Origin: Arenicola marina
Taxonomy: Eukaryota; Annelida; Polychaeta; Arenicolidae
Length of the DNA: 64,000 bases
Direction: 5' to 3'
Assembly: GCA_964019135.1 (NCBI GenBank)
Contig: OZ025252.1
Location: forward strand, 3,922,823 to 3,986,822
In this document: positions 18,301 to 57,622 of the stretch, piece after piece
Numbering within the stretch: the first letter of the stretch is position 1
Layout of the letters: each line of letters begins with the position of its first letter
Program-made: the position numbers and the translations under genes
Notes under the pieces: model-generated
Seen by the model: only the letters and a program-made list of their open reading frames with translations
What the model was told of the DNA's origin: nothing
Database searches by the model: none

Positions 18301-18601
18301 TCATGTATATTTCAGCTTGAACAGATAAATAGAGGTGCAAAGTATGGCAGTTTTGGTTTTGTCTGTAGGAGCCTTTGGCACTGAGAAAAACAATAATTAT
18401 TGAATTTATTTGAATTAAGCAATTTATTTTGTCAGTTCTATACATTAGTTTGTCCTTAATATAGCTATGCAGATAATGTTTAATTTGGACCGCTGCCACA
18501 TGATCCTAGATGAGATGGTGCTCAATGGAAAAATAGTGGAGAGTAACAAGAGTAAGGTCCTCGCCCCACTACAGCTTATGGATCAAGCCCTGGCCAAATG
18601 A
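12391..18601 (+). CDS. AP4S1: AP-4 adaptor complex sigma subunit, complete gene
   Basis: Five exons join with matching phases: 12391-12528 (46 codons), 17376-17462 (29), 17720-17788 (23), 18240-18251 (4) and 18473-18601 (42 plus TGA). The product is 144 aa, the same length as human AP4S1. It begins [15 protein letters not shown], has the sigma-family KYYQH segment, then [44 protein letters not shown] and [19 protein letters not shown]. These track AP4S1 (LDEMVLNG rather than the AP-1/2/3 versions). Sigma is the small core subunit of the AP-4 coat at the trans-Golgi network, which exports ATG9 and other cargo. All junctions have GT and AG; the first donor (GAG then GTTTGT) is the weakest. Intron 1 (4.8 kb) holds repeat elements and a THAP remnant. 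The last codons overlap the first unit of a tandem array. A candidate AATAAA lies at 19204-19209, beyond that array. Confidence 0.95.
12762..12994. mobile_element. MITE copy 1 in AP4S1 intron 1
   Basis: Terminal inverted repeats carry a doubled motif: ggaccagtgattgcgcag then gtaccagtgattgcgca on the left, mirrored on the right at 12948-12982, with imperfect outer extensions ending in 'atatag'. A second copy at 14033-14247 is homologous along its length in opposite orientation (agcaaaagatgg, atatgcagat and cttacaaaat are shared). No coding capacity. Confidence 0.75.
13020..13140 (+). repeat. Interspersed repeat, copy A (partner at 42000-42105)
   Basis: Shares with 42000-42105, in the same order, the blocks 'tttcaatca-ccgccat', 'ctcc-gaat-tcc' and 'accgaatggatgcgc'. 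The two copies are clearly diverged. Family unknown. Confidence 0.5.
13472..13700 (+). pseudogene. Degenerate THAP-domain remnant
   Basis: An ATG opens MPTCCAPGC, the start of the C2CH zinc-binding THAP fold. After a frame change, [18 protein letters not shown] matches the 'LP-d---r--W' middle of the domain, and CHLHFKERF, again in another frame, matches its C-x2-H end. Stops and at least two frameshifts make it non-functional. THAP domains occur in host regulators and in P-element-type transposases. The inverted MITE copies on both sides hint at a transposon origin, which is inference only. Confidence 0.5.
14033..14247. mobile_element. MITE copy 2, inverted relative to copy 1
   Basis: Same doubled terminal motif (gaccagtgattgcacag, then caccagtgattgcgca; right end tgcgcaatcactggtacc and the same block again). 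Its right outer flank, ccaccttctatat, is the reverse complement of the left outer flank of copy 1, so that flank belongs to the element. Confidence 0.75.
14661..14812 (+). other. Exon-like open segment in AP4S1 intron 1
   Basis: After a pyrimidine-rich 'tttttttacatttcag' comes an open frame starting [15 protein letters not shown] that runs about 50 codons to a stop, without a repeat signature. It does not fit AP4S1, whose exons join correctly without it. It may be a decayed exon of the THAP-related remnant upstream. Function unknown. Confidence 0.2.
14813..17375. other. Remainder of AP4S1 intron 1
   Basis: AT-rich to about 16100, then a more GC-rich block (16130-16320) with a 26-bp partial duplication of 'gttcatgataaggc', then a 23-bp tandem (16517-16612) and a poly-C run near 16769. 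No exon recognised. Confidence 0.5.
16517..16612. repeat. 23-bp tandem repeat, about 4 copies
   Basis: Units of caggctgtctcctgtcaatg followed by tgt, nearly identical, the last with one substitution. Within AP4S1 intron 1. Confidence 0.9.
17890..18124. mobile_element. Short poly-C-rich interspersed element in AP4S1 intron 3
   Basis: Begins 'tagtgaatccagtgaggcgg' and ends 'tttgaatccgcacc', so the edges are roughly inverted (gaatcc and ggattc type). It contains three C runs and a repeated 'atatagaacccttttca'. Likely the same loose family as other G/C-run elements in the window. Confidence 0.4.
18240..18251 (+). CDS. AP4S1: AP4S1 exon 4, 12-nt microexon (CELD)
   Basis: The sequence after a good acceptor (attcaatttcag) is TGTGAGCTGGAT followed at once by GTATCC. 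It encodes C-E-L-D, the residues needed between FDKYFDKV of exon 3 and IMFNLD of exon 5 (AP sigma subunits read V-C/S-ELD-I-I/M-FN here). Without it the protein would lack this block, so the microexon is strongly implied although no RNA was seen. Confidence 0.88.
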
Positions 18602-18957
18602 TGGAGTGTAGACTTTGTCGAACTTATGGATCAAGCCCTGGCCAATTAATGATGGATTGTGGACGTTGCCAAACGCATGAACCACTCTCTGGTCAAGTGT
18701 TGGAGTGGACGTTGTCAAACGCATGAACCACTCTTTGGCCCAATGATGGAGTGTTGACATTGTCAAACGCACGAACAACTTTTTGGCCACGTGATGGAGT
18801 GTGGACTGTCAAACTCATGAACCACTCTCTGGCCAAGTGATGGAGTGTGGACGTTGCCAAACGCATGAACGACTCTTTGGCCCAATGATGGAGTGTGGAC
18901 GTTGTCAAACTCATGAACCACTCTCAGGTCAAGTGACTGACTTGGCATTCCCAAGCT
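18576..18957 (+). repeat. 48-bp tandem array seeded from the end of AP4S1
   Basis: Eight units of about 48 bp. The first is the end of the gene itself: it starts at ttatggatcaagccctggcc (codons for LMDQAL, then AK), runs over the TGA at 18599-18601 and into the 3' UTR (atggagtgtagactttgtcg). Unit 2 still has ttatggatcaagccctggcc; later units drift to gcatgaaccactctttggcc. The array therefore grew into the 3' UTR from the coding end and keeps the gene's own stop in unit 1. Confidence 0.9.
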
Positions 18958-24360: not shown

Positions 24361-24514
24361 GCGCGGCCGGAGCTGATTGCTCAAAGCTCAGTGTGCGGGA
24401 TGGGGCGGGAAAAAACCGCGCGGGACCGTGTTCATTCGAACACTAATTAATGTCACTTCATGTTCCGATCGACGTGTGGGATGACCAGAAAGATAATCAA
24501 TGTTATAATAACTT

Positions 24515-26727
24515 ATACAGTTAAATCGATTGTATTGTAGATTTATGAGACAAAAAACCAAAGAATCTGAGCATGATTATAAAAAATATAAAAATAAGCT
24601 TTTATCCACTGTTAGAGCGGCAGAAAAAACGTATTATCAGTCCGCCATAAAAGCAAATAAAAACAACTTGTTTAAGATGTGGAAAACAATTAAAGAGGTA
24701 GAAAACAAAAAACAAGGTCAGAAGTTCCAAACGACATTTTCGATAAGAGGAGGACTGATTACAGACAGAAGCCAAATTGCTAATGAGTTTAATAACTACT
24801 TTGTTAATGTTGGTAAATCTATATCAAAAACAACCCCAAGAAATGGAGATTCACCACTCACGTTTATGAAAGATACCAATACTAAGTCGCTTTTCCTTGA
24901 GCCAGTTACTAGTAGTGAAGTCCGCAACCCCCTTGCATCCCTAAAGAACAGCTCACCAGGATGGGACTCGCTAACAGCCAAAGTAATCAAAACGATTATA
25001 GATCCCCTCACCCAACCCCTAACTCATGTAATTAATCTCTCATTTAGTGAAGGGATATTTCTCGAAGAACTTAAACGTGCAAAAGTAACACCTATCCTGA
25101 AAGGGGGGGATAGTAAATTATTTACTAACTACAGACCAATTTCAATTCTTCCTTCAACATTTTCTAAAGTGTTCGAACAGCTGATGCAGAAACGTCTAAT
25201 CAACTTTATTAACAAATAGGACTTACTACACAAAAACCAATTTGATTTTAGATCAAATCACTCTACTACCTTAGCCCTTTTACTTCTGCAAGATAAACTA
25301 ACAACTGCTAGGAAAATGGGACAAACTACTGTTGGTATATTTCTTGATTTCTCAAAAGCCTTCGATACGGTTGACCACGATATAATGTTTAAAAAATTAG
25401 ACAGATACGGCGTATGAGGGCTTGCTTTAACGTGGCTAAAAAGTTACCTCAATGCGAGAGAACAGTTTGTAGTTTACAATAATACATTTTCGAACAGATC
25501 TCGTAGTATGTGGAGTCCCGCAAGGTTCTGTTCTAGGTCCACTTTTATTTCTTTTATACATTAATGACTTAATGAATGTAAGTAAGCAATTGTTTGGAAT
25601 CTTATTTGCAGATGATTCTAATTTCTTTATATCGGGCAAAGATATCAATAACACGATTGAAACGCTGAATGGGGAATTAAAACACATACAGTATTGGTTA
25701 CAAATTAGTAAGCTTGCTCTCAATCTCGATAAAACTAAATTCATGGTTTTCAAACCCAAGCGAAAGAAAATTAGTATTCACAGCAGTGTCATCATTTCTG
25801 GCGAAACTGTTGTACAAACTACTATCACGAAATTTGTGGGAGTACAATTAGACTGTGACCTTCTGTGGAAACAACATATAGATTATATTAAAAGTAAAAT
25901 GGCAAGGGCGCTTGGAATAATCACTTGTGCAAGGAAAATGTTAACCAATGACACCCTACGGATTTTATATAATTGTTTTGTATCTCCATATCTATCATAT
26001 CGTATTGAAGTATGGGGAGCTTCGTGTAGTAGCTTTTTAACCCCTCTTATCGTGATCCCAAAAAAAGCAGTTCGCATATTGTCTGGAGTTAATAAATGGG
26101 CCCACTCAGCGCCGTTATTTGTAACGAATAAGATTCTCCCGCTCACATCATTATACGAGTATAGCGTTTTATCATTTATGTTTAAGCAATACAATGGATT
26201 GCAACCTCTTATAATAAAAGATTTGTTTATAAGAAATGCTGACATACATAAGTATAACACTAGAAGGTCGCAGCTATTACATGTTCCTAAGCACAAGTGT
26301 CAATTGACGAAAATATCTATGAGATATAATGGGATATATATTTTTAATAAATGGTTTGGTAAGGTAAACTTTCAATCATCGCTTCACCTTTTCAAGAGAA
26401 ATACTAAGGATAGTTTGTTAAATATAATTGATACGAGTAATTTAACTAATGTTAATTTGATGTGTAACTAGCCATCACAATATAATCATATATGTTACTG
26501 AGTTAATAGAAAGAAAGAACTATTATAGTGCAACGATTGGGCCAAATCGATATTATCTAGATTGCTGTACTACCGTTCCATGTTCCAGTTTTTTGTTGTT
26601 GTTTTGAGCTTTTTTTTTTTCTTTCTTTTTTTTGAGCAAATAAGCCTCGGCTTCTGCTCCTGGCCAACCAGTTCTGTATTATCTTGATTTGTGTACTCTT
26701 CATGGCAATAAAAGATTATTATTATTA
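24515..26727 (+). mobile_element. Dead, 5'-truncated non-LTR retrotransposon (LINE)
   Basis: Reverse transcriptase domain in pieces: 24530-25219, with the pre-RT region and NYRPISILP block, ended by an in-frame stop; a middle part (25220-25510) with DFSKAFDTVDH, a further stop near 25415 and a frameshift near 25505; then 25572-26471 with the FADDSNFF catalytic box and C-terminal domain to a natural-looking stop. The N-terminal endonuclease is absent, as expected for 5' truncation. The 3' end is an 'aataaaagattattattatt' tail at about 26706-26727, typical of CR1/L2/Jockey-type elements. Two stops and a frameshift make it inactive. It is in antisense to the fuseless-like gene and its tail abuts that gene's exon. 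Confidence 0.9.
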
Positions 26728-40495: not shown

Positions 40496-40785
40496 ACCCG
40501 CACCCCCCCCCCCCCCCCCCACACGACTCACTGGCAGCACACTGGGTCACACCCCCAACCTCCACCCCACCCCCGCCACCCCCGGACTTACTGGCAGCAT
40601 GAGCTGGGTCCCACCCCCTTTACCCACCCCCCGCCACCCCTGGTCTCACTGACAGCACGCGCTGGGTCCCACCCCCTTACCCCACCCACGCCACCCCCAG
40701 ACTCACTGGTAGCACAATCTGGGTCCCACCCCCTCACCCCACCACCGCCACCCCCGGACTCACTGGCAGCACGCGCTGGGTCATT
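40496..40785. repeat. About 63-bp C-rich tandem repeat, 4 copies
   Basis: Units contain 'actcactggcagcacgcgct', then 'gggtcccaccccc', a variable C-rich stretch and 'cgccacccccgg'. It is preceded by a poly-C run at 40504. Confidence 0.85.
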
Positions 40786-42105: not shown

Positions 42106-42332
42106 AACTGCTTCGGTTGACATTTGACCAGGACGCAAACTAGCCACCGCATGCTAATATGACTATATGCTAATGGCTCAAGGTGACCCCTCGAAGCTAG
42201 AATATTTAATGAATGAAGTGTCATTAGTTATGCCGTTCAAACGCTGTGTCCGCTTCCGCGTTTGGGTTGCTGACTGCAAGAATTCACATCAGATATGGTA
42301 TCTCAGACACAAAACGTGTCCACATACGAAAT

Positions 42333-43616
42333 ATGATGGGTTCGCGTTGGCGCTCTATTAGCGCCTGGCGCTCTATTATCGCCTGGCGCCCCATTATCGC
42401 CTTTATGACCTCCATGATCTTGTTGGTCTTGTGGATTCGAGGGTTCATGCCTCAACGTGTACGTCAAGGTCAATCCATGGTTCTGAACACATCATATGTG
42501 TTCAATGTCAGTTCGCATGAGAAGGACAAACCAAGGTCAGGCGTCGAGCCACCAGATACTTTGCCAAACTGTACGAACGATGTTATTTTGCGCTATTATG
42601 CGGAATATGGTTACCTACCGGGAAACGGAAGATGGGTGTTTATGGATAAGGAGTTTCATCCCGATATCTGCAATTTCCAATGGAAAGAAAAATCGGACTT
42701 TGAACAGATCCAGATATGCCTGTTGCCCGTCAGCCACTTAATCTTGATGGGCGATTCTAACGGGGCACGGTATTTTAAGTCAGCCATCAAACTACTGAAA
42801 CAAGTCGGATTTCTTTGCCAGCTTACCAAGAGCGAAAAGGATTCGCTTCTCCCAGAGTATTCATATTTTAATGATTCCATGAAGAATTTATCCCTGGAAG
42901 CGGTTAAATTGAAGAGGCGTCGTTGTCATTCTTGCTTCTCTAGACAGTTTCTCTGTCACAGTGCATCAGTTAACCCCAGAGATGCCAGAAGTCGAAATAT
43001 CACGGTGGAGTTCCTGTCCTTGTCAAGCTTTAAGGATTACTCAATTTCCGTCTCCAAGAAGAATAGCTGCGCAACAGGAACGTCACAAGCGTCCGTAAAC
43101 CCAATAAAACAGGCTGGGAAATGTCGACGAACCACAACACTTACCTATCAGGAAATATTGAGTTTTCATTATCTCCAAAAAGATGGAGTGTTACCGGACG
43201 ACTCCAAGAGAGTCTTTCTCGTGTTTCCGCCGTTCTCTCATATGAGAAAACATGGAACCTTGACCGAGAACTTTGAGAGTACTACATATTTCTATTCCAT
43301 GTTACTACGCGCCGCACTGCCGACCGATGTTCTATACTTTATGCCAGCGTTTAGGGAGTATCCCGAAAGGAAACCTCTGTATATGGTGGACACGTCGTCG
43401 AAAGACGCGAACATTATGCTTCAAGCCATGAATGCATATTTGTTAGACGAAATGCGGAATGACCTTTTGACCCCTGGTGGCCACGTGCGTACGTTCTTTG
43501 ACCTGATGTCGGTTTCTCGCGGTCGGACCACATGGAGCACTGACGGTGTGCACATGCAACCGGTGTGGTACCTAAACATAATGAAGTATTGGTTCCAAGT
43601 TGTGTGCTTGTCGTGA
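42333..43616 (+). CDS. Type II membrane GDS/SGNH-fold (PC-esterase-like) protein, gene 1
   Basis: Intronless, 427 aa from the first ATG in frame (42333). Residues about 21-38 are a hydrophobic signal-anchor after a short basic N-terminus, so the enzyme domain should face the Golgi lumen or outside. Block I of the SGNH fold is GDSNG at 140-144 (S142 the likely nucleophile), and the C-terminal Asp/His pair is in DGVH (D404, H407). A conserved cysteine group CHSC-x7-C lies in between. This layout fits the PC-esterase/GDSL superfamily that includes glycan acyltransferases and esterases (TBL, CASD1 and NXPE relatives); the substrate is unknown. The N-terminus carries a short internal duplication (AWRSIIAWRPII). 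It is followed 531 bp later by a paralogue on the same strand, and a tandem duplication is clear. Confidence 0.85.
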   Translation: MMGSRWRSISAWRSIIAWRPIIAFMTSMILLVLWIRGFMPQRVRQGQSMVLNTSYVFNVSSHEKDKPRSGVEPPDTLPNCTNDVILRYYAEYGYLPGNGRWVFMDKEFHPDICNFQWKEKSDFEQIQICLLPVSHLILMGDSNGARYFKSAIKLLKQVGFLCQLTKSEKDSLLPEYSYFNDSMKNLSLEAVKLKRRRCHSCFSRQFLCHSASVNPRDARSRNITVEFLSLSSFKDYSISVSKKNSCATGTSQASVNPIKQAGKCRRTTTLTYQEILSFHYLQKDGVLPDDSKRVFLVFPPFSHMRKHGTLTENFESTTYFYSMLLRAALPTDVLYFMPAFREYPERKPLYMVDTSSKDANIMLQAMNAYLLDEMRNDLLTPGGHVRTFFDLMSVSRGRTTWSTDGVHMQPVWYLNIMKYWFQVVCLS

Positions 43617-44147
43617 AAATTTTCTATTAATTATAACGATGTCTGTTTTGCATAGGACGCCAAGTTTAATGCATCACCGGTGACACGAATTAATTACATG
43701 CAAACATGGTTAATTGCTTGTCATGTAATTAAGCTACTAATTGGCTACTTGCCGCCTGATGACGAGACCTTGCATCAGAAAACTTGCATAAGGATAATTT
43801 CCATGAAAAACTTGTATATCATCGATGAGAATTGTGAAGCAAGTAGACGTGCTAACTCATCAGCGCTTTGCCGCTGAGTGGTGGTGGCTATGATCGTTAT
43901 TGCTTCTTATACGGCATGATGTGATACAGCCTGCAGCAAGCACTAATTACTGGCCTGGACAATATGCAATTACACGGAATAACTAATATCTTGACGATGC
44001 ATTGCACATACAGTTAAGACAAATGTCTGTCGTAAATGCTAGTAACTAACAAGGGACACCTCCAATTGTGAAGAAAGGTAAAATTTGTTACAAGTTCTCT
44101 TACCGAATCAATAGAAGATCGCCAATAGGTGCTAAAGAAATGCTAGA

Positions 44148-45290
44148 ATGGCACTGATTGTGGAGACATGCCTTCCATCGTGGAAGATGCTGTGGCTATA
44201 CGTGAATATTGTTTTTGTATATTACTGCATTCTGCAAAGGATGAATTACATGACACAGAGACAACTTTTCCGACCACTTTGTCATCGTAATCAGCTGCGA
44301 GAATCTTATCAAAAGCTAGGATACTTTCCCCAAGGACAATGGTTGAATGGGACCGCTACATTTGTTGCGGATTCGTGCCATTTCCCGCATAGCAATCTGC
44401 CGTGTGACTTTATAAGGAAGTGCTCAAGAAAGAATAGCTGGAGTCGCATAGTTCTCATGGGGGACTCCAACGGCGCAAAGTATTTTGTGGCGCTGGCCAA
44501 CCTTTTTAAAAAATGTCTCGGTTCCTGTCGCCTAGTAAAACGGGAAAGAATAATGAATGGTGGATTTCTACCTGATGTCAATTATTTCATGGACAAGCAC
44601 GATGCCATGCGTAAGCGCATATTGACGCGAAACAGACCGTGCCACTCGTGTTCATGCCAGAAGCTCAACTGTTCGAACGAGCACAATGAAATTTCTGGTC
44701 AGTATTCAGTCACATTAGAATTTCTGTCTCTCGCAAGTTTGAACGACTCTTCTATTACCACAAAGAAGCGGGCGAGGCCGCACATTGCAAATCAAACTGT
44801 CTATGACACATCGTACTCCTTTTCAACTTACCAACATTTTGTATTTGGACATTATCTGGTACAGGCTCGAAATCCAGATATCATCTTGATTGTTATGCCA
44901 TTCAACCATATGAAGCTCTTACACTCAATGGACAAAATCAAGAACGCTATCCAAGACTTCATGGACCTTTTAAAACAATCACAAACGTTGCTAAATTCTG
45001 ATATTTACATTCTGCCCATATTCCGAGAGTTTGAGAATCGCAAACCCGCAAGTTGGAAACAACATTCGATAGACGGCATGAGTCCATCAGAAAAACTCGA
45101 TAAGATGAATCACGTATTATATTCAGTCATAGAGAAGGATTTACTGAACGTTTCGAGTCGGATATACTCGTTCTTTGACCTGATTGCTGTGTCGGAAACC
45201 AAGGCCTCGTGGAGCAGAGATGGCATTCACATGGCGCCCATTTGGTACCACAAAATTATGTCATTTTGGATGCAATCCGTATGTTTGTGA
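44148..45290 (+). CDS. Type II membrane GDS/SGNH-fold (PC-esterase-like) protein, gene 2
   Basis: Intronless, 380 aa. Signal-anchor at about 12-29 (LWLYVNIVFVYYCIL). It shares with gene 1 the segments YLPG/YFPQG-x-W, IVLMGDSNGAKYF (S107), CHSC-x6-C, VTLEFLSLASL, a FREF/FREY motif, and DGIHMAPIWYHKIM (D358, H361). The catalytic Ser-Asp-His set is intact, so it is probably active. Overall the pair is clearly diverged, so the duplication is old. Several N-x-S/T sites (for example NGT at 67-69) fit a secretory-pathway protein. A polyadenylation signal AATAAA lies at 45365-45370, 75 bp after the stop. Reaction and substrate are inferred only at superfamily level. Confidence 0.85.
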   Translation: MALIVETCLPSWKMLWLYVNIVFVYYCILQRMNYMTQRQLFRPLCHRNQLRESYQKLGYFPQGQWLNGTATFVADSCHFPHSNLPCDFIRKCSRKNSWSRIVLMGDSNGAKYFVALANLFKKCLGSCRLVKRERIMNGGFLPDVNYFMDKHDAMRKRILTRNRPCHSCSCQKLNCSNEHNEISGQYSVTLEFLSLASLNDSSITTKKRARPHIANQTVYDTSYSFSTYQHFVFGHYLVQARNPDIILIVMPFNHMKLLHSMDKIKNAIQDFMDLLKQSQTLLNSDIYILPIFREFENRKPASWKQHSIDGMSPSEKLDKMNHVLYSVIEKDLLNVSSRIYSFFDLIAVSETKASWSRDGIHMAPIWYHKIMSFWMQSVCL

Positions 45291-48881: not shown

Positions 48882-51800
48882 ATGAGGGACATGAAAATGG
48901 CGGAGCTACAGTTCGAAGCTCCCCTCGCAAAATTTGATGGTGACGAATGGAACGAATTCCATGATTTTCAAACAACTTCGGATATGGAAAACTCTAACAA
49001 AGGCAGCAGTAGCGGAGCTGCGGAGAAACAGGACCAAGCAGATGTGGATAATTTTAGTGAGACATTCTCCGGGTCCCTCGAAGATTTGGTGAATACATTT
49101 GACGAAAAAATCACCAAGTGCTTCTGTAATTATGAAGAATCGGTGGAGAAATTGGCGCCGGTACAAATCCGATCACAGGATGAAATAATGAACGATTGCG
49201 AGTAAGTTCTCTCAGAGAGTGGTTTGTGTAGGTTTCGAATCTTCCATGGATTAAAAACCAGACTTGTTTATGCTGCCATGGCATTGTTGGCATCTCGGCC
49301 GTCTGTCAGTCTGCTATCTGATGCCAGTCTGTCACCAGTCACTGAATCCAGTGTGCAACCTACTGCCCAGTACTGGAGGATGTCAACTGCAACGACCCAC
49401 TGGCAGTTACAACATTGGATGGATTTATCTATTCTATTCCAGCATAAATAAAACAGGCATCTTTATTATATATATTATAAGAATAATTATATAGATCTAA
49501 TGACTGCACAAATATTAATCTAACATAATGATAATATGGAAGTTGATCAGTTTACTTGGTTTACAGCTTTTATAATCCTATCCTACATCACCTTTATTAG
49601 GCTTTAACAGCTAAAATCTGTGTACATCAGCCATTTAATAATTTTATGCATCAGTTTTATTCGAGGTCTATACTAAAGTCGTATATTTATTATTAATGTA
49701 ATAGAGATCTTTTTAGAGTTTCTTGTATTGAAATGAATATATATTTGTCTAAGAGATCTTTAAAAGTTAGCTGGAAAAAATTATTTAGGAAAAGCTTTTG
49801 TCATTCTCCTCTTTTGATAACTTTGCTATTCAATCTAATATATAACCTAGTTGATACAGATTGCATATTGCTCTAACTAGAGTGACAAACAGCATGAAAT
49901 TTAATAAATATCAAAATATTACCTCTACAAATTAAGTTTATGAAAGATATCAATATTTTGCTCATAGTTTATATAGTACCTCCTTGACCTCTCTGCCTCC
50001 CTCTCCAGTTAATGTCAAAGGTATTACCACTTCAAAACCATATGCCAGGTATTTGGCTTGCATAAAGTTAGCTTTTGAGAGGTTTGAGTTGTGTTGACTT
50101 GGCAAAGATATTTTTATTATTTGTATCATGGTATATGACTTTTATGATATCAATATGATCAATTATAACAAGAGGAGAACTTCAGAGGTTAAGAAGGTAA
50201 TAAGCAACGTGAATATCTTGTATGAACATCATGACGCTAACAGAATATTGCCTGTTCACAGAAAATGGGGACTCAACTGAAGCGTTCAACAACAGTTCAA
50301 TTCATTCTCTGAGTCAAAATCAACTGAAAGCTACATTCACCTGTTTTTTTTGTCTACCACTCATTTTGTACACATAGTTATGGATTGCTGGTTATTGGTA
50401 CTCTTTTATTCTGATACAATGGTGATAACTTCATCTTAATTATTATATACATATTAATTGCTGTTACTGTTACAGTCACTGCTGCATACTGATTTTTGTC
50501 ATATATCCTATATCAGTCAGTGCTACATACTGATGATTATCATGATACTTGTACTATGCGCTGACTGGCTACCTACTGGTAGGTAAAAATGCCTCTGTAT
50601 TGCTTGTAAATTACTATCCATTCTATTTTTTTATCATTTTACACTCTTTCTTGAACCAGAGCATTTTTTTGTGGATGATTCTATCTCACATGAAATGTTC
50701 CCTCTTATCCTTATAGGTCGCCAGATCCTCTAAGGAATCTAAATCAGAAAATGTTAATTTTGTGTTCACAAACATCCTAAAAGTTGAGCTTTGGCCTTGT
50801 AGTTTGCGATTTGCCTGTGGCAAATTTGCTATAGAGTACATCTTTGGAATGTGTATATAATATATATGTTACAAGATGCCCCAACCAAAGAAGAGTTTTT
50901 GTGTGATAAGGGCCAGAATTCTTGGTAGGCTTGCCTTGGCTGCGTTGTGCTTTGCTTCATACCGAGTATTGCTACACCTGGGATATTCTGCGTAGGAGCC
51001 AGTGTTTTCACACACTACGCAGCAAATTGAAAACTGCCTCTGTACAGATAACTAATCTGATACATTCATGGTCAGTGATATAATCTCGATATATTAACCT
51101 GGTTACCATGCTTGTACCTGCAGCTTTAGTAATTCATGTGCGATGCCTTCATGTTGCAGTATGTGGTGGACAATCACAGGAAACTTTGGTAACATTTTAC
51201 CAATAGACTGGTCAAAAACCTATGCACGGCAGCTACAGGAAAAAGCACTTCATCTACCAGAGAAACAGGTCTGTATAATTGGCCACAGTAGTTAATTTGT
51301 AATGTAATGGATATATAGCAGTAGCAGATAGTAGACATGGCTAAGGAATTAGACCTTTATCATGTTTATTGACCTGTAAATGTACCTGTAAATGGCTTGA
51401 TAATTGTTGACCTAGTACAAGCTGCTGTGGTAACATTATGAACTCCTGCATTATTTCTAAATGTATCTTTAAGTATCTGTATATTTTGACATTTAAATCG
51501 TTATTCTTACTGAGGTCAACAGGAGCCAATGTGTCACTCTTGTTGAGGTCAGGAGCCAACATGTCTCCCCCTCATTAATGAGGTCACCAGTAGCCAATGT
51601 GTCTCATGAATGAAATCATCAGGAGCCAAGATGTATCCTCATAGTAGTCACCTTCACTCAATTTGTCTCCTTACATAGGTCACAAGGAGCCAATGTGACT
51701 CCTTACAGAGGTCACCCTGAGCCAATATGTGTCTTCATAGAGGTCACCTTCACTCATTGTCTCTCTTTTATGAGGTCATCAGGAGCTAAGATGTCTCCTT

Positions 51801-54800
51801 GCAGAGGTCACATTGAGCCAGTGTGTCTCCTTACAGAGAGTCTCTCGCAGGAACCACTACTCTCTTTACACCAGCAGGGGCCCGCCCGGTAGCTAAGTGA
51901 GTTAGAGCGCTCGCATTGAGTGCTCTGGCCATTGAGTGCCTAACGGCGCGTAGATCGGTGGTTCGAGCCCCGCTGTGGCCATGTCTTTGGTCGCAGGATA
52001 AAGATCCCATGTTCCTCTTCGCAAAGAATAGGGGGTTACATGGGACATGACTCCACTCTCCCGTTGTTCTCCCATCGACGCGATATGACCGAAAGTGGTT
52101 AAAGCGCCTTCAATATACAACCAACCAACTTTACACCAGAGTTCCGCCAGGAATCAGTCTTCCCGTTCAAGGATCACTTGGGCCACTTGGCGGTGGGGGG
52201 GGGGGGGGGGGGCGTCTAGACCCGTGCCCGGTGTCACTGTGGCGTGACTGTGCCGTGCCTCATGCAGTAATTACGTGGAGTGTTGGTCGGTAACGGGATC
52301 CCTGTTGTGACGTCACAAAACATGGCGTGACTGAAGGAGAATCTAATCCCATGGGGCCGCAGTTGGCATTGATTCCGAGGCACGGCCTGAGGTCACGTGG
52401 TGTATCAATGGATTCACCGGTGCTCGGGGCCACTCGGCGGGATAATGGAGATGGTTTGGCGAACACAAATCTGCACTATTGATCAGAGCATATGTATTAA
52501 TCATAAAACCATTGACACCCTGTAGAAACATACGTAAAATATATGTTTACAATGCTAAAGAAACTGCTTAGATGGCTTCGTCAAGGCGGTGATTTAACTG
52601 AAGCATATTCCACAATGAAGTCATTGGCTGCCAACCCAAATTCTCCTATATGATAGATAGGATAAGTATTTACTTTGACAAATGGATGATACATGATGAC
52701 AGTTTTTCAGAAAATAACGGCATCAAAAAAAGCATTAGGTCAATTATGTGTTGTCGAGGACGAACAAACTGAAGTGGAATGTCCTGTCATGTCCAAAACT
52801 TATTCAAATCATGCTGTGAGATTGTCAAAAAGGTTAAAATGCATTAGCTGGGTTAAGTGCATGTTGTTTCTTAGTTAGCTTCAGTTTGGTGATCCTTCCT
52901 GGTTGATCATCCTGGCCGACATTTAGGCTCAATTATTTTGACGCCCGCGCCAGATGATGTGCTCTCAGCCTCACTCCAAGCTTATGGCCAGGCAGAGGTT
53001 AATTCGTCCGACTGAATCCAACATATTATATCGGGCTCCCCGATATAATATGTTGGATTCAGTCGGACGAACCTGAACCCATCTAATGGATGCAGTCTTT
53101 TTGTCTGTCGCGTCTCTCTGTTGATAAAACGTGCGACGACATTTCCGCCCCTTTATGCCGACAAGCGCCCTTGGGTGGACTCCCCAGGGTTACCGCAGTG
53201 AACCCGAGAGGGGAGTCGCTGATTGTTTGTTTCTTTAGACACGTGACTCGAGGGACGTTTTGTGTCTGTCTCCAGTGCCACGTGGAACAACTGATAGAAG
53301 GCAGCTTGCGCGACATGTTGCTAAGACTTATTGAGCGTGCCGTCAAGAAATCATGAAATTCTTGTATGCTATTACTTATATACAAATATTAAAGTCGGCA
53401 CTGTTGGACCAAGCAACCTGTTAGGTGATACCTAGTTTGGCAATTGTGTTTGTTTCGGCGCAGTAGAATTTAGCTATAAATATATATGTGTAATTGCAGA
53501 TATACTCTGGGGGTTTTATCGGGTACAGCGTAAGGTGGTGAGGTGATGGCATTTGCTGCGAGGTTGATAAGCCGCTTATGTTCACGAGATTAGCTTTGAT
53601 TTCTACGGCAGGTGACAATGCCTACCGTGAGTCAGCTTCCGGTTGGACAACGGCGCTATAGTACAGACGGTGTAGTAGTGCCTCTAGTGTAGTATTGATG
53701 TAGCATTTGTAGCATAAGTCACGCTGTGGGTGTGTGGCTCTTAGCGCCACACCTGAAACATTTATAGTAGCAGCAAAACGGCGTAAGGCTTTCAAATGGA
53801 AATGTCAAATATGGATGTCCTTGTCGCCCACGTAAAAGCTTCGGGTAAAGAGGATATCAATATATGCCACTCTGTACATCGTCAACAACACACGGCAGTT
53901 CAGCAAAGAGTTAATGCTCGACTTGGACCCAAATGGCCGCGAAATAGCGGGGACCAGTTTCCACTCCATATTTCACCTGGAAATGAAACGTAGCTGCTTT
54001 TAAGCCGCTTTTTGTGCTCGTCAAGGGTAAATTGGGCCAAATAAGCCTACTGGGACGATGCAATGGGTTTGGGTGAAACTTGCGCCAGATCCTGGGGCCA
54101 GGGTTCGAACCCACGCCCTTTTTATCTGCAGCTCAGCCTGCTCACCAGCGGATCTAGGGCGGCTCCTATTATACCGGCATCCGTGCTGCGAGAGCAGCCT
54201 TATGTGTAGCATGAGGCTACGATCATTTATTCACACGGTCTGTTAGTTCCCTTGTGTCTGGCTGAATGAATTTGTATCTCTTCTGGCGGAGGGGGAAGCG
54301 CATTGGCTGTTCTCGGTCACCTGTTCCTTCTGGCCAGCCGAGCGGGATCGGTTTTGCTGCCATTCAGGCTTCTATTTATCTTATTTACCTTCTTTATGTC
54401 CACGTGCCGTCTATTTTCCGGTGGGAAGGACTCACTGCTTTTTGCTGCCACGTGTCTTGGATGACCCCCAGACCGTGTCTGATGAATACATGTGTGTATA
54501 TGTCCCGGTGTGGTCCCTATCTCAGTTGATATGCTAGCTGCATACGCTATAATATCGGACACGGGTGTCCAATAATGTCTCCCTACAAGAGTTTATATTG
54601 CGGATGACGGGACACGTGGCGTGCCATATTGTACTCTCCTCCAATGGCTGTTGTTGCGGCGTGTGTGTCTCAATTCCCTTGTCGCTCGTTTAGAGATAGA
54701 TGGTTTTTCTGGGGGGTTTTGTTGTTGTCACAACTGGGTGGGCTACAGCTGCTGCCTTGGGGGGCACACTCGCACCGCGGCCAGACGGCTCTGTCATTGT

Positions 54801-57622
54801 GGCGACTTATCAATTACAATGGAGGTCTATTCCACTATGGTGGAAATATATCCATTACGATGGAGATATATCCATGAAAATGGAGACATATTCCCATTAC
54901 GTTGGAATTGTAATCATGGCAATGGAGATGTTTCCATTACGTTGAAGACGTATTCCATATGAAGGAGAGGTATCTATGACGATGGAGATGTATCCATGAC
55001 GATGGAGAGGTATCTATGACGATGGAGATGTATCCATGACGATGGGGATGTATCCATGAAGATGGAGATGTAACCATGACGATGGAGATGTATCCATGTC
55101 GATGGGGATGTATCCATGACGATAAAGATGTATCGATTACGATGGAGACGTATTCTCTATTATGGAGATGTCTCCATGGGAATGGAGATGTATCCATGAC
55201 GACGAAGAGGTATCCATGACGATGATGGAGATGCATCTGTTGTAGTGGTGAACATCCCATTATTCATGATTTTATTATCTTAGTTAAATAAAGGGATTAC
55301 AGCTACATTCGGTTCTCCAGCAAACGCGGTGAGATCAAGCTGTAGCAGGATCTCACCAGTGGATTCAGCGAGTTAATCATGTAGTCTGTGTGTTTGACGC
55401 CACGTTGTCTTCTTGCCCCACAGGAGTGCGAGTCCCCTGACCTTGACCTCTCTGACGACGAGGAGCTGTCGCAAGCCTTCGACATGCATTCGCTGATCAT
55501 CTCCAGCCTGCAGCAAGAACCGCTCTTCACCGCCGACCAGGTCATCAACGAGATAGAGGGCATGATGGAGGTGGGTCCGTCATAGGTTAACAACGAGATA
55601 GAGGGTGTGATGGAGGTGGGTCCGTCATAGGTTAACAACGAGATAGAGGGCATGATGGAGGTGGGTCCGTCATAGGTTAACAGCGAGATAGAGGGCATGA
55701 TGGAGGTGGGTCCGTCATAGGTTAACAACGAGATAGAGGGCATGATGGAGGTGGGTCCGTCATAGGTTAACAGCGAGATAGAGGGCATGATGGAGGTGGG
55801 TCCGTCATAGGTTAACAACGAGATAGAGGGCATGATGGAGGTGGTCCGTCATAGGTTAACAACAAGATAGAGGGCATGATGGAGGTGGGTCCGTCATAGG
55901 TTAACAGCGAGATAGAGGGCATGATGGAGGTGGGTCTGTCATAGGTTAACAACGAGATAGAGGGCATGATGGAGGTGGGTCTGTCATAGGTTAACAACGA
56001 GATAGAGGGCATGATGGAGGTGGGTCTGTCATAGGTTAACAACGAGATAGAGGACATGATGGAGGTGGGTCCGTCATAGGGTGACAACGAGATAGAGGGC
56101 ATGATGGAGGTGGGTCCGTCATAGGTTAACAACGAGATAGAGGGCATGATGGAGGTGGGTCCGTCATAGGTTAACAACGAGATAGAGGACATGATGGAGG
56201 TGGGTCTGTCATAGGTTAACAGCGAGATAGAGGGCATGATGGAGGTGGGTCCGTCATAGGTTAACAACGAGATAGAGGGCATGATTGAGGTGGGTCCGTC
56301 ATAGGTTAACAACGAGATAGAGGGCATGATGGAGGTGGGTCTGTCATAGGTTAACAACGAGATAGAGGGCATGATGGAGGTGGGTCCGTCATAGGTTAAC
56401 AACGAGATAGAGGGCATGATGGAGGTGGGTCCGTCATAGGTTAACAACGAGATAGAGGGCATGATGGAGGTGGGTCCGTCATAGGTTAACAACGAGATAG
56501 AGGACATGATGGAGGTGGGTCTGTCATAGGGGGACAACGAGATAGAGGACATGATGGAGGTGGGTCCGTCATAGGTTAACAACGAGATAGAGGGCATGAT
56601 GGAGGTGGGTCCGTCATAGGTTAACAACGAGATAGAGGGCATGATGGAGGTGGGTCCGTCATAGGTTAACAACGAGATAGAGGGCATGATGGAGGTGGGT
56701 CCGTCATAGGGTGACAGCGAGATAGAGGGCATGATGGAGGTGGGTCCGTCATAGGTTAACAACGAGATAGAGGGCATGATGGAGGTGGGTCTGTCATAGG
56801 GTGACAACGAGATAGAGGGCATGATGGAGGTGGGTCCGTCATAGGGTGACAGCGAGATAGAGGGCATGATGGAGGTGGGTCCGTCATAGGGTGACAGCGA
56901 GATAGAGGGCATGATGGAGGTGGGTCCGTCATAGGTTAACAACGAGATAGAGGGCATGATGGAGGTGGGTCCGTCATAGGTTAACAGCGAGATAGAGGGC
57001 ATGATGGAGGTGGGTCCGTCATAGGTTAACAACGAGATAGAGGGCATGATGGAGGTGGGTCCGTCATAGGGTGACAGCGAGATAGAGGGCATGATGGAGG
57101 TGGGTCCGTCATAGGGTGACAGCGAGATAGAGGGCATGATGGAGGTGGGTCCGTCATAGGTTAACAACGAGATAGAGGGCATGATGGAGGTGGGTCCGTC
57201 ATAGGTTAACAGCGAGATAGAGGGCGTGATGGAGGTGGGTCCGTCATAGGTTAACAACGAGATAGAGGGCATGATGGAGGTGGGTCCGTCATTGGTTAAC
57301 AACGAGATAGAGGGCATGATGGAGGTGGGTCCATCATAGGTTAAACATTTCGCGAATCTCCGTAGTTACTGTGTTCGGTATGCGAATCCCATATACGTGG
57401 TTTGCCTCCTGAGACTGATTCTATATGCGGAACCAAATCAGACCGATTTGTTTTCGTTTCCTGTCACTGATGACGCGGTATTTGCCTGGTTTTCCCTGCA
57501 GGACAGCGACTGCCCGTCGCCAGGGAGCACGCCTTCCACCTCGGACGTGCTGTCGGCCGCCTCCACCGAGCTGCTCCACCTCAAGGAGAAGGCCATGGAG
57601 TCCGGGGTCACCGTCGAGGACA
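48882..57622 (+). CDS. FEZ: FEZ (fasciculation and elongation zeta / UNC-76) N-terminal half
   Basis: Four exons with matching phases: 48882-49201, 51160-51268, 55424-55570, 57502-57622, encoding residues 1-232 and then a phase-1 donor (GACA then GTAAGT). Family landmarks in order: FEAPLAKF near the start; SLEDLVNTFDEKITKCF at about 68-85 (FEZ1 has a very similar DLVNEFDEKL block); WTITGNFGNILPIDW in exon 2; EPLFTADQVINEIEGMME at 175-192 (FEZ1 EPLLTADQVIEEIEEMM). ATGs at 48891 and 48897 are alternative starts. FEZ proteins are largely disordered kinesin-1 adaptors for axonal vesicle transport; the C-terminal coiled coil expected next is not seen before 64000, so the gene probably continues past the right edge. 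Intron 3 is almost wholly a 45-bp tandem array made from the end of exon 3. Introns 1 and 2 hold a 20-bp array, a degenerate repeat and a SINE. Confidence 0.93.
51508..51845. repeat. Degenerate tandem repeat of about 40 bp in FEZ intron 2
   Basis: Variants of 'gaggtcaccaggagccaatg' followed by 'tgtctcctta' repeat about eight times with much divergence. Confidence 0.75.
51875..52128 (+). mobile_element. tRNA-derived SINE with 11-bp target duplication
   Basis: The head is tRNA-like: an A-box-like tagctaagtgagttagagcg at 51890-51909 and a B box ggttcgagccc at 51960-51970, followed by a tRNA-unrelated body and an 'aaccaaccaa' tail. A perfect direct repeat ctttacaccag flanks it (51864-51874 and 52129-52139). 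It sits in FEZ intron 2. An intact tRNA is not possible because the arms do not fold as a normal cloverleaf (extra sequence between the boxes). Confidence 0.85.
53003..53071. repeat. Perfect 33-bp palindrome (hairpin) with 3-nt loop
   Basis: Arm 1 (53003-53035, starting ttcgtccgactgaatcc) is exactly complementary to arm 2 (53039-53071), with loop ctc. No T tract or neighbouring gene end suggests a terminator; it lies in FEZ intron 2. Confidence 0.9.
54020..54200 (-). mobile_element. Possible tRNA-derived SINE, reverse orientation
   Basis: On the minus strand, gtgggttcgaaccctgg is a B-box-like element, preceded by 'tagatccgctggtgagcagg' which could be an A-box relative. No flanking duplication found. 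Confidence 0.4.
54815..55245. repeat. 20-bp tandem repeat upstream of FEZ exon 3
   Basis: Units of gatggagatgtatccatgac, degenerate in the left third (54815-54960), regular in 54970-55240. It ends about 180 bp before exon 3. Confidence 0.9.
55541..57339 (+). repeat. 45-bp minisatellite, 40 units, seeded from FEZ exon 3 and its 5' splice site
   Basis: Unit 1 (55541-55585) is the last 30 nt of FEZ exon 3 (codons VINEIEGMME) plus the first 15 nt of intron 3 (gtgggtccgtcatag). Units 2-40 repeat it as gttaacaacgagatagaggg then catgatggaggtgggtccgt then catag. Total length is 1799 nt, which is 40 x 45 minus one base, matching a single-base loss at about 55844. Thus nearly every unit carries the exon end with the splice donor GAG then GTGGGT, and an in-frame TAG. 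The array covers 55571-57339 of intron 3 (55571-57501). Variants are 'aacaac/aacagc', 'gttaac/ggtgac' and 'ggtccg/ggtctg', shared between neighbouring units. On the minus strand the array is open for 501 codons only because of repetition. Confidence 0.97.

Follow-up and report, generated by a model that had tools for sequence, protein, structure and literature searches.

A 40-unit minisatellite spanning an exon-intron boundary of FEZ in the annelid Arenicola marina, and similar arrays at other exons of the genome

We analysed a 64,000-nt stretch of the Arenicola marina genome (the window), which lies on contig C5 (OZ025252.1) of an 867-Mb assembly of 762 contigs. The plus strand of the window carries a gene that the initial annotation had named FEZ. 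Profile searches bore out this identity, with four exon matches to Pfam PF07763 above the cut-off, three within the window and one downstream of it. The Pfam-matched part of an N-terminal coding exon lies at 49074..49202 (C5:3971896-3972024; E 2.9e-12), and a tblastn search with an approximate human FEZ1 query matched 48918-49202 (E 4.4e-10). The matched part of exon 2 lies at 51143..51268 (C5:3973965-3974090; E 1.7e-8) and is followed by the donor CAG/GTCTGT at 51269. Exon 3 (55424..55570; E 2.9e-16) is 147 nt long, consists of 49 codons in phase 0 and ends ..VINEIEGMME; exon 4 occupies 57502..57622 (DSDCPSPGSTPS.., then GTAAGT). The intron upstream of exon 3 measures 4155 nt, provided that no unrecognised exon lies between. 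Intron 3 measures 1931 nt, of which 1769 nt belong to a tandem array; the remaining 162 nt (57340..57501) form a non-repeated tail with a good acceptor, TTTTCCCTGCAG. Comparison of exon 3 with solved structures and NCBIfam returned antitoxin matches only, at chance level, and an Rfam scan of the window at gathering scores returned zero matches.

Other repeats and reading frames were seen in the same window. FEZ intron 2 holds a separate minisatellite on the plus strand (19 copies of 20 bp, 54841..55224), about 200 nt 5' of exon 3, and an array at 51578-51838 with periods of 32 and 96 bp, whose units hold TTACAGAGGT, with acceptor- and donor-like letters adjoining. Neighbouring long single frames at 42228-43616 and 44136-45290, both on the plus strand, have the motif LMGDSNGA.YF in common and form a tandem pair of an unnamed family; neither had a Pfam match above the cut-off. 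A retrotransposon reverse transcriptase lies at 25473-26468 on the plus strand (PF00078, E 7e-14), and the frame that precedes it (24512-25216) gave no convincing match.

The array at the end of FEZ exon 3 occupies 55541..57339 on the plus strand. It had been described as 40 units of 45 bp, each composed of 30 nt of exon 3 and 15 nt of intron 3, and this anatomy held for all units except unit 7, which is 44 bp long. Tandem Repeats Finder (TRF) placed the array at 55539-57344, with a period of 45, 40.2 copies and 95% matches, so that its occurrence by chance is out of the question; a whole-genome DNA search found it at one place only. Each unit consists of the 30-nt exon end, the donor GAG/GTGGGT and the remainder of the 15 intron nucleotides, which end TCATAG. 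The donor had been reported in every unit and is intact in 39 of the 40, the exception being unit 7, where the loss of one G changes it to GTGGTC. Similarly, the AG that was thought to close every unit, as CATAG, is present at 39 of 40 unit ends and is replaced by CATTG in unit 39. Unit 1 (55541..55585, donor at 55571) comprises the authentic exon end and the first 15 nt of intron 3. It had rightly been singled out as the sole true exon end: GTCATC, coding V-I, occurs in unit 1 alone, and units 2-40 have GTTAAC or a variant in its place. Extension of the exon past the first donor would, as claimed, add VGPS and then a TAG stop, which is codon 54, the exon itself having 49 codons. The predicted in-frame 30-nt pieces were also recovered; 38 30-mers lie between CATAG and GTGG, and 18 of these encode exactly VNNEIEGMME. 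The repeat unit spans the exon-intron boundary, as do those of mirage minisatellites.

The edges of the array suggest how it arose. Immediately 3' of the array the intron has the sequence TAGGTTAAACATTT, and the exon at its head has CAGGTCATCAACGAG; from unit 2 onward the sequence is TAGGTTAACAACGAG or derived from it. A single hybrid junction at an AGGT common to both partners, 45 bp apart, explains every repeat, and from these letters we infer the duplication itself and the order of events. Ancestral intron 3 would have begun GTGGGTCC.TCATAGGTTAAACATTT. Its TAGGT would have paired with the exonic CAGGT 45 bp upstream, and a tandem duplication would have joined intronic AGGTTAA to exonic CAACGAG, so that the hybrid GTTAACAACGAG, or a variant, would be present from unit 2 onward and unit 1 would retain the exonic GTCATCAACGAG. 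The hybrid junction would thus be the reason that unit 1 differs from the rest. Later slippage or unequal exchange would have expanded the array to 40 units and kept the units alike. Neighbouring units were not significantly more alike than shuffled units, so no track of the expansion is visible. Variants confined to a single unit occur at the edge of the array (units 39 and 40) and also inside it (units 2, 8 and 17).

We next compared variation at the extra donors with that in the rest of the unit. A scoring matrix was built from 93 of the genome's donors, selected as the best candidates close to match ends and including those of the array exons. On this matrix the FEZ donor scores 9.13 bits, which places it at the 59th percentile of the 93; among the window's 3760 GTs, 1.4% score at least as high, mostly those of the array itself. 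Among the 38 full-length inner FEZ units, 12 of 45 columns are variable, with 46 substitutions, and none of the variable columns falls within the donor 9-mer (P = 0.044, by column). We then pooled 155 copies from 10 donor arrays. The GT was intact in 152 copies; the count is restricted to copies with no more than 8 mismatches over 36 positions, so that badly decayed donors would escape it. Substitution per site was 0.024 in exon-derived positions (-24 to -4) and 0.024 in donor positions besides GT; these equal rates indicate that the extra donors evolve like the adjoining exon-derived part, apart from a deficit at GT that is weak at most. The rate was lower than at the remaining sites for GT itself (0.0097; 3/310) and higher for intron positions +7 to +12 (0.087; 81/930), the latter inflated, in our reading, by indels in G/C runs. 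The invariant FEZ donor 9-mer and the low GT and high +7 to +12 values in the pool are weak hints of donor constraint, or merely reflect G/C-run indels and one shifted unit. We saw no coding constraint on the exon-derived part of the FEZ units, since seven of nine variant types alter the residue. The AG sites of the array have 41-47% pyrimidine upstream, as compared with a median of 71% for 80 acceptors, only 8.75% of which are as low; those acceptors, also best candidates near match ends, were chosen among candidates by pyrimidine content, so the comparison flatters them. Judged by this context, the array AGs are poor acceptors.

Each unit can also be folded into an 8-bp hairpin, ATGATGGA-GGTGGG-TCCGTCAT (55562-55583 in unit 1), with the GT in the loop, and 39 of 40 units keep all of the pairs. 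Against 500 shuffles each, unit 1 had a z-score of -2.2, with 14 shuffles folding equally well, and unit 3 one of -1.9, with 22 doing so. Eight of the nine other array donors were amenable to the test, and an excess of this kind was absent both from these and from 72 plain donors (mean z of 0.43 and 0.03, respectively). We therefore rejected a donor hairpin as a general feature of such arrays and regard it as a local property of FEZ.

Arrays of the same architecture occur at other genes. We surveyed 201 exon matches to the myosin head and kinesin motor profiles (all 77 myosin rows and 124 of 133 kinesin rows; those left out were five on C390, C504 and C536, three with several in-frame stops and one weak match), of which 94 had sequence with flanks of at least 600 nt. 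Two or more further copies of the last 20 nt of the match were present in the vicinity for 8 of 94 exons, and of its first 20 nt for 4 of the 94; sequence at a distance of 30-240 nt from the match was repeated in 16-21% on the downstream side and in 4-13% on the upstream side. Boundary-spanning arrays were found at 11 of 94 exons and in 8 of 38 gene clusters, in a sample that was drawn by profile score from two families, with many exons in the same genes and match ends that are not always exon ends. A k-mer listing had flagged 12 exons; on inspection we dropped C12:10169582 and C13:39079656, where the array seems to lie beyond the exon, and did not count C4:41885060, where the array's edge alone touches the donor. 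The repeat table supplied one further exon, C7:32814139.

Nine of the arrays are of the donor type, with the repeat crossing the 3' end of the exon, and three are of the acceptor type, one exon having both. The donor-type arrays are at C12:10144302 (62 bp, 21.8 copies in view), C7:32814139 (37 bp, 6.6 copies), C2:59156564 (100 bp, 13.1 copies), C12:10162418 (126 bp, 2.9 copies), C14:6742300 (71 bp, 19 copies), C20:13012801 (94 bp, 14.6 copies), C14:6743157 (60 bp, 3.5 copies), C5:9366046 (37 bp, 35.8 copies) and C10:22888960 (92 bp, 3.1 copies). Acceptor-type arrays are at C12:10161763 (81 bp, 11 copies), C10:22888960 (23 bp, 13.8 copies) and C17:1217539, the last with two copies plus the authentic one and not called by TRF. 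Three more donor arrays were read at exons next to these in the surveyed genes, at C11:10022400 (..GIIAIL/GTGAGT), C8:17006587 (..PTPLAE/GTAAGG) and C14:21550043 (..LGNVIMALANK/GTACGT, first unit out of view). Recurrence at unrelated genes is as expected of a generic minisatellite process.

A strand comparison that needs no exon calls gave a concordant picture for donors. In 94 arrays with a period of at least 20, from 185,261 bp of gene-oriented sequence, donor-like sites (matrix score of at least 7) were present on the sense strand of 23 arrays and on the antisense strand of 5 (discordant 22:4, p = 0.0005, with one or more arrays of the kinesin gene on C14 probably counted twice). The sense-strand excess was also seen at five other cut-offs (p of 0.004-0.03). 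Acceptor-like sites in the arrays had no sense-strand excess (10 vs 14 at the laxest cut-off), and the difference between arrays beside donors and beside acceptors, 17 vs 10, was not significant (p = 0.25). The window itself contains an array of about 48-bp units at the last coding exon of an AP-4 sigma gene (18575..18936, plus strand; E 3.3e-12 against a solved AP-4 sigma-1 chain), called by TRF at 18590-18936 with 7.2 copies. This array has about eight units from 18575, consisting of the coding end and the bases around the stop codon, and six of them keep TGATGG with the stop. The minus strand at 40502-40782 holds approximately five 57-bp units whose donors resemble GTGAGT (TGCCAGTGAGTC); this may be another boundary array, at an unrecognised exon.

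Several observations on the assembly were made alongside the survey. A myosin gene on the minus strand at C4:367768-384767 has four matches to profile positions around 110-154 and four to 590-640, which are likely to be sets of alternative exons. The kinesin matches on C390, C504 and C536 have in-frame TAA or TAG and no TGA, and these are possibly ciliate contigs carried along in the sample. C762 (15,942 bp) contains cox1 by Pfam PF00115, and its long frames, assigned by eye, lie on one strand as cox1, cox2, cox3, nad6, cob, atp6, nad5, nad4L, nad4, a gap, nad1, nad3 and nad2; the gap after nad4 contains tRNA-Val, where the ribosomal RNAs would lie. This is presumably the common annelid gene order. 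PF16915, an erythrocruorin-linker family that we take to be annelid-specific, was matched at four places on C14. Both observations point to an annelid host and speak against amphioxus, the animal from which mirages are known.

The position of the FEZ array suggests how it is spliced. With a 147-nt exon between introns of 4155 and 1931 nt, exon definition is expected. Among identical 5' splice sites this would favour the one closest to the upstream 3' splice site, here the donor of unit 1; units 2-40 would then be removed along with the intron. The array would be tolerated because all of the extra units lie downstream of the intact exon and its first donor. Published work, cited here and below for the excerpts available, includes evidence on both sides. 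In exon-defined minigenes with two identical strong donors, the upstream donor was used exclusively, and weakening the identical donors led to exon skipping in some minigenes (PMC9225289). Amphioxus mirages are described as leaving regular splicing undisturbed (PMC3087553, PMC3902484). By contrast, intron definition favours the downstream site (PMC9225289), and Reed and Maniatis, as reported in the same paper, observed a preference for the intron-proximal site in vitro, which would predict use of the last unit's donor and counts against our reading. On balance we infer use of the exon-proximal donor and neutrality of the array. We therefore consider it highly probable that the feature is a neutral, mirage-like, boundary-spanning minisatellite that was born by an AGGT-anchored slip, in a genome that is generally prone to such arrays, and is tolerated through exon-proximal donor choice.

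The initial annotation had offered functional roles as possible consequences of the array, namely a U1 decoy array, regulated truncation or variable isoforms. As a decoy, the 39 downstream donors would capture U1 snRNP, intron 3 would be removed more slowly or under regulation, and occasional extension to the TAG would give truncated or NMD-sensitive mRNA. We regard this as improbable. It would fit with the intactness of 39 of 40 donors, the rank of the FEZ donor among 93 donors of the genome, the VGPS-stop extension, the lack of variable columns in the FEZ donor 9-mer and the GT being the least variable part of the pool; however, in the pool of 10 arrays the donor positions other than GT are as variable as exon-derived ones, the GT deficit comes down to 3/310, equivalent arrays are found at unrelated genes, and the AP-4 sigma array lies at a stop codon with no donor involved. 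That a chain of 30-nt microexons is included in variable number, lengthening the acidic helix of FEZ in frame, seems very improbable. The 38 in-frame 30-mers between AG and GT, 18 coding for VNNEIEGMME, make such inclusion conceivable, but the pyrimidine context of the AGs is poor, and a donor is separated from the next AG by 15 nt, which makes splicing between adjacent units implausible, such that at least one unit must be skipped. Given that the donors vary like exon-derived bases, that the AG context is poor and that the arrays recur elsewhere, the functional readings are unsupported.

We likewise give very little credence to an assembly artefact, in which the real array would be shorter, longer or absent. 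There is a precedent in one amphioxus mirage that looked misassembled in a genome draft (PMC3087553), yet the inner FEZ units differ from one another, with 46 substitutions across 12 columns, and boundary arrays recur at exons of several contigs. Intron gain by the Rogers model, in which an AGGT-bearing exon piece is tandemly duplicated and the array itself becomes a new intron, has an almost negligible probability. The exonic CAGGT at 55538 and the AGGT at the unit edges are what such a model calls for, but 15 nt of intron including the donor are already in each unit, and beyond the array the intron continues as a non-repeated tail that ends in a good acceptor. The donor inside the units and the unique tail together indicate that the array lengthened an existing intron, rather than an intron having formed from duplicated exon sequence. 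The fallback offered by the initial annotation, a neutral intronic minisatellite, is the better reading, to which we add the resemblance to amphioxus mirages.

The closest counterparts are the amphioxus mirages of Adh3, the globins Gb6 and Gb9, TnC and PGBD5 (PMC3087553, PMC3902484), whose repeats also span an exon-intron boundary, at 5' or 3' exon ends, with AG or GT signals duplicated as here. Those mirages have units of 10-160 bp, and Gb6 alleles have 3 and 6 units, as compared with 40 units in FEZ; their host is a cephalochordate, whereas here it is an annelid, with arrays at 11 of 94 sampled exons. In the open literature reachable by search we found no boundary arrays in annelids. The nearest case is the earthworm metallothionein gene (PMC12783039), an annelid gene with intron minisatellite clusters and exon-4 duplications that are absent from the final transcript; its repeats, as described in the available text, lie within intron 1 and in exon copies, and do not consist of units that cross the end of an exon and take in the donor. 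Human variable internal tandem repeats (PMC2812944) are also boundary minisatellites that alter gene structure (average unit 30 bp, 4 repeats), but these are located within segmental duplications and may give rise to new introns, whereas in FEZ an existing intron was lengthened. Arrays of dual-specific splice sites in UBC and VCX3A (PMC10809524) similarly have AGGT sites in the unit; in these, a single motif acts both as donor and as acceptor, and the intron is a whole number of units long. FEZ differs, with its acceptor at 57501, 162 nt beyond the array, and an intron length of 1931 that is not a multiple of 45. The system in PMC4974935 resembles FEZ in that an AGGT-anchored duplication brings splice signals along, and differs in that here an existing intron grows and none is newly created. 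The FEZ array is a known kind of repeat, and the host phylum and the abundance are what is new with respect to the open literature reachable by search.

A bolder proposal is that exon-boundary minisatellites are a genome-wide force in this species, affecting about one exon in nine and supplying genuine donors and acceptors in great numbers of tandem copies, and a standing source of intron growth, latent extensions and in-frame microexons, some of them used in some tissues or individuals, with the spliceosome bound to a strict exon-proximal rule; we put this forward as speculation that is more likely wrong than right. Boundary arrays show a route of intron lengthening, and they may mislead gene predictors. 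Exons followed by about 2 to 40 near-identical donor copies reproduce in nature the classic experiments with duplicated splice sites; with donors this similar, site strength cannot decide between them and position must. If about one in nine exons is typical, the species would constitute a natural large-scale test of choice among identical splice sites, and its RNA alone could show, for many genes together, whether proximity across the exon or across the intron governs the choice.
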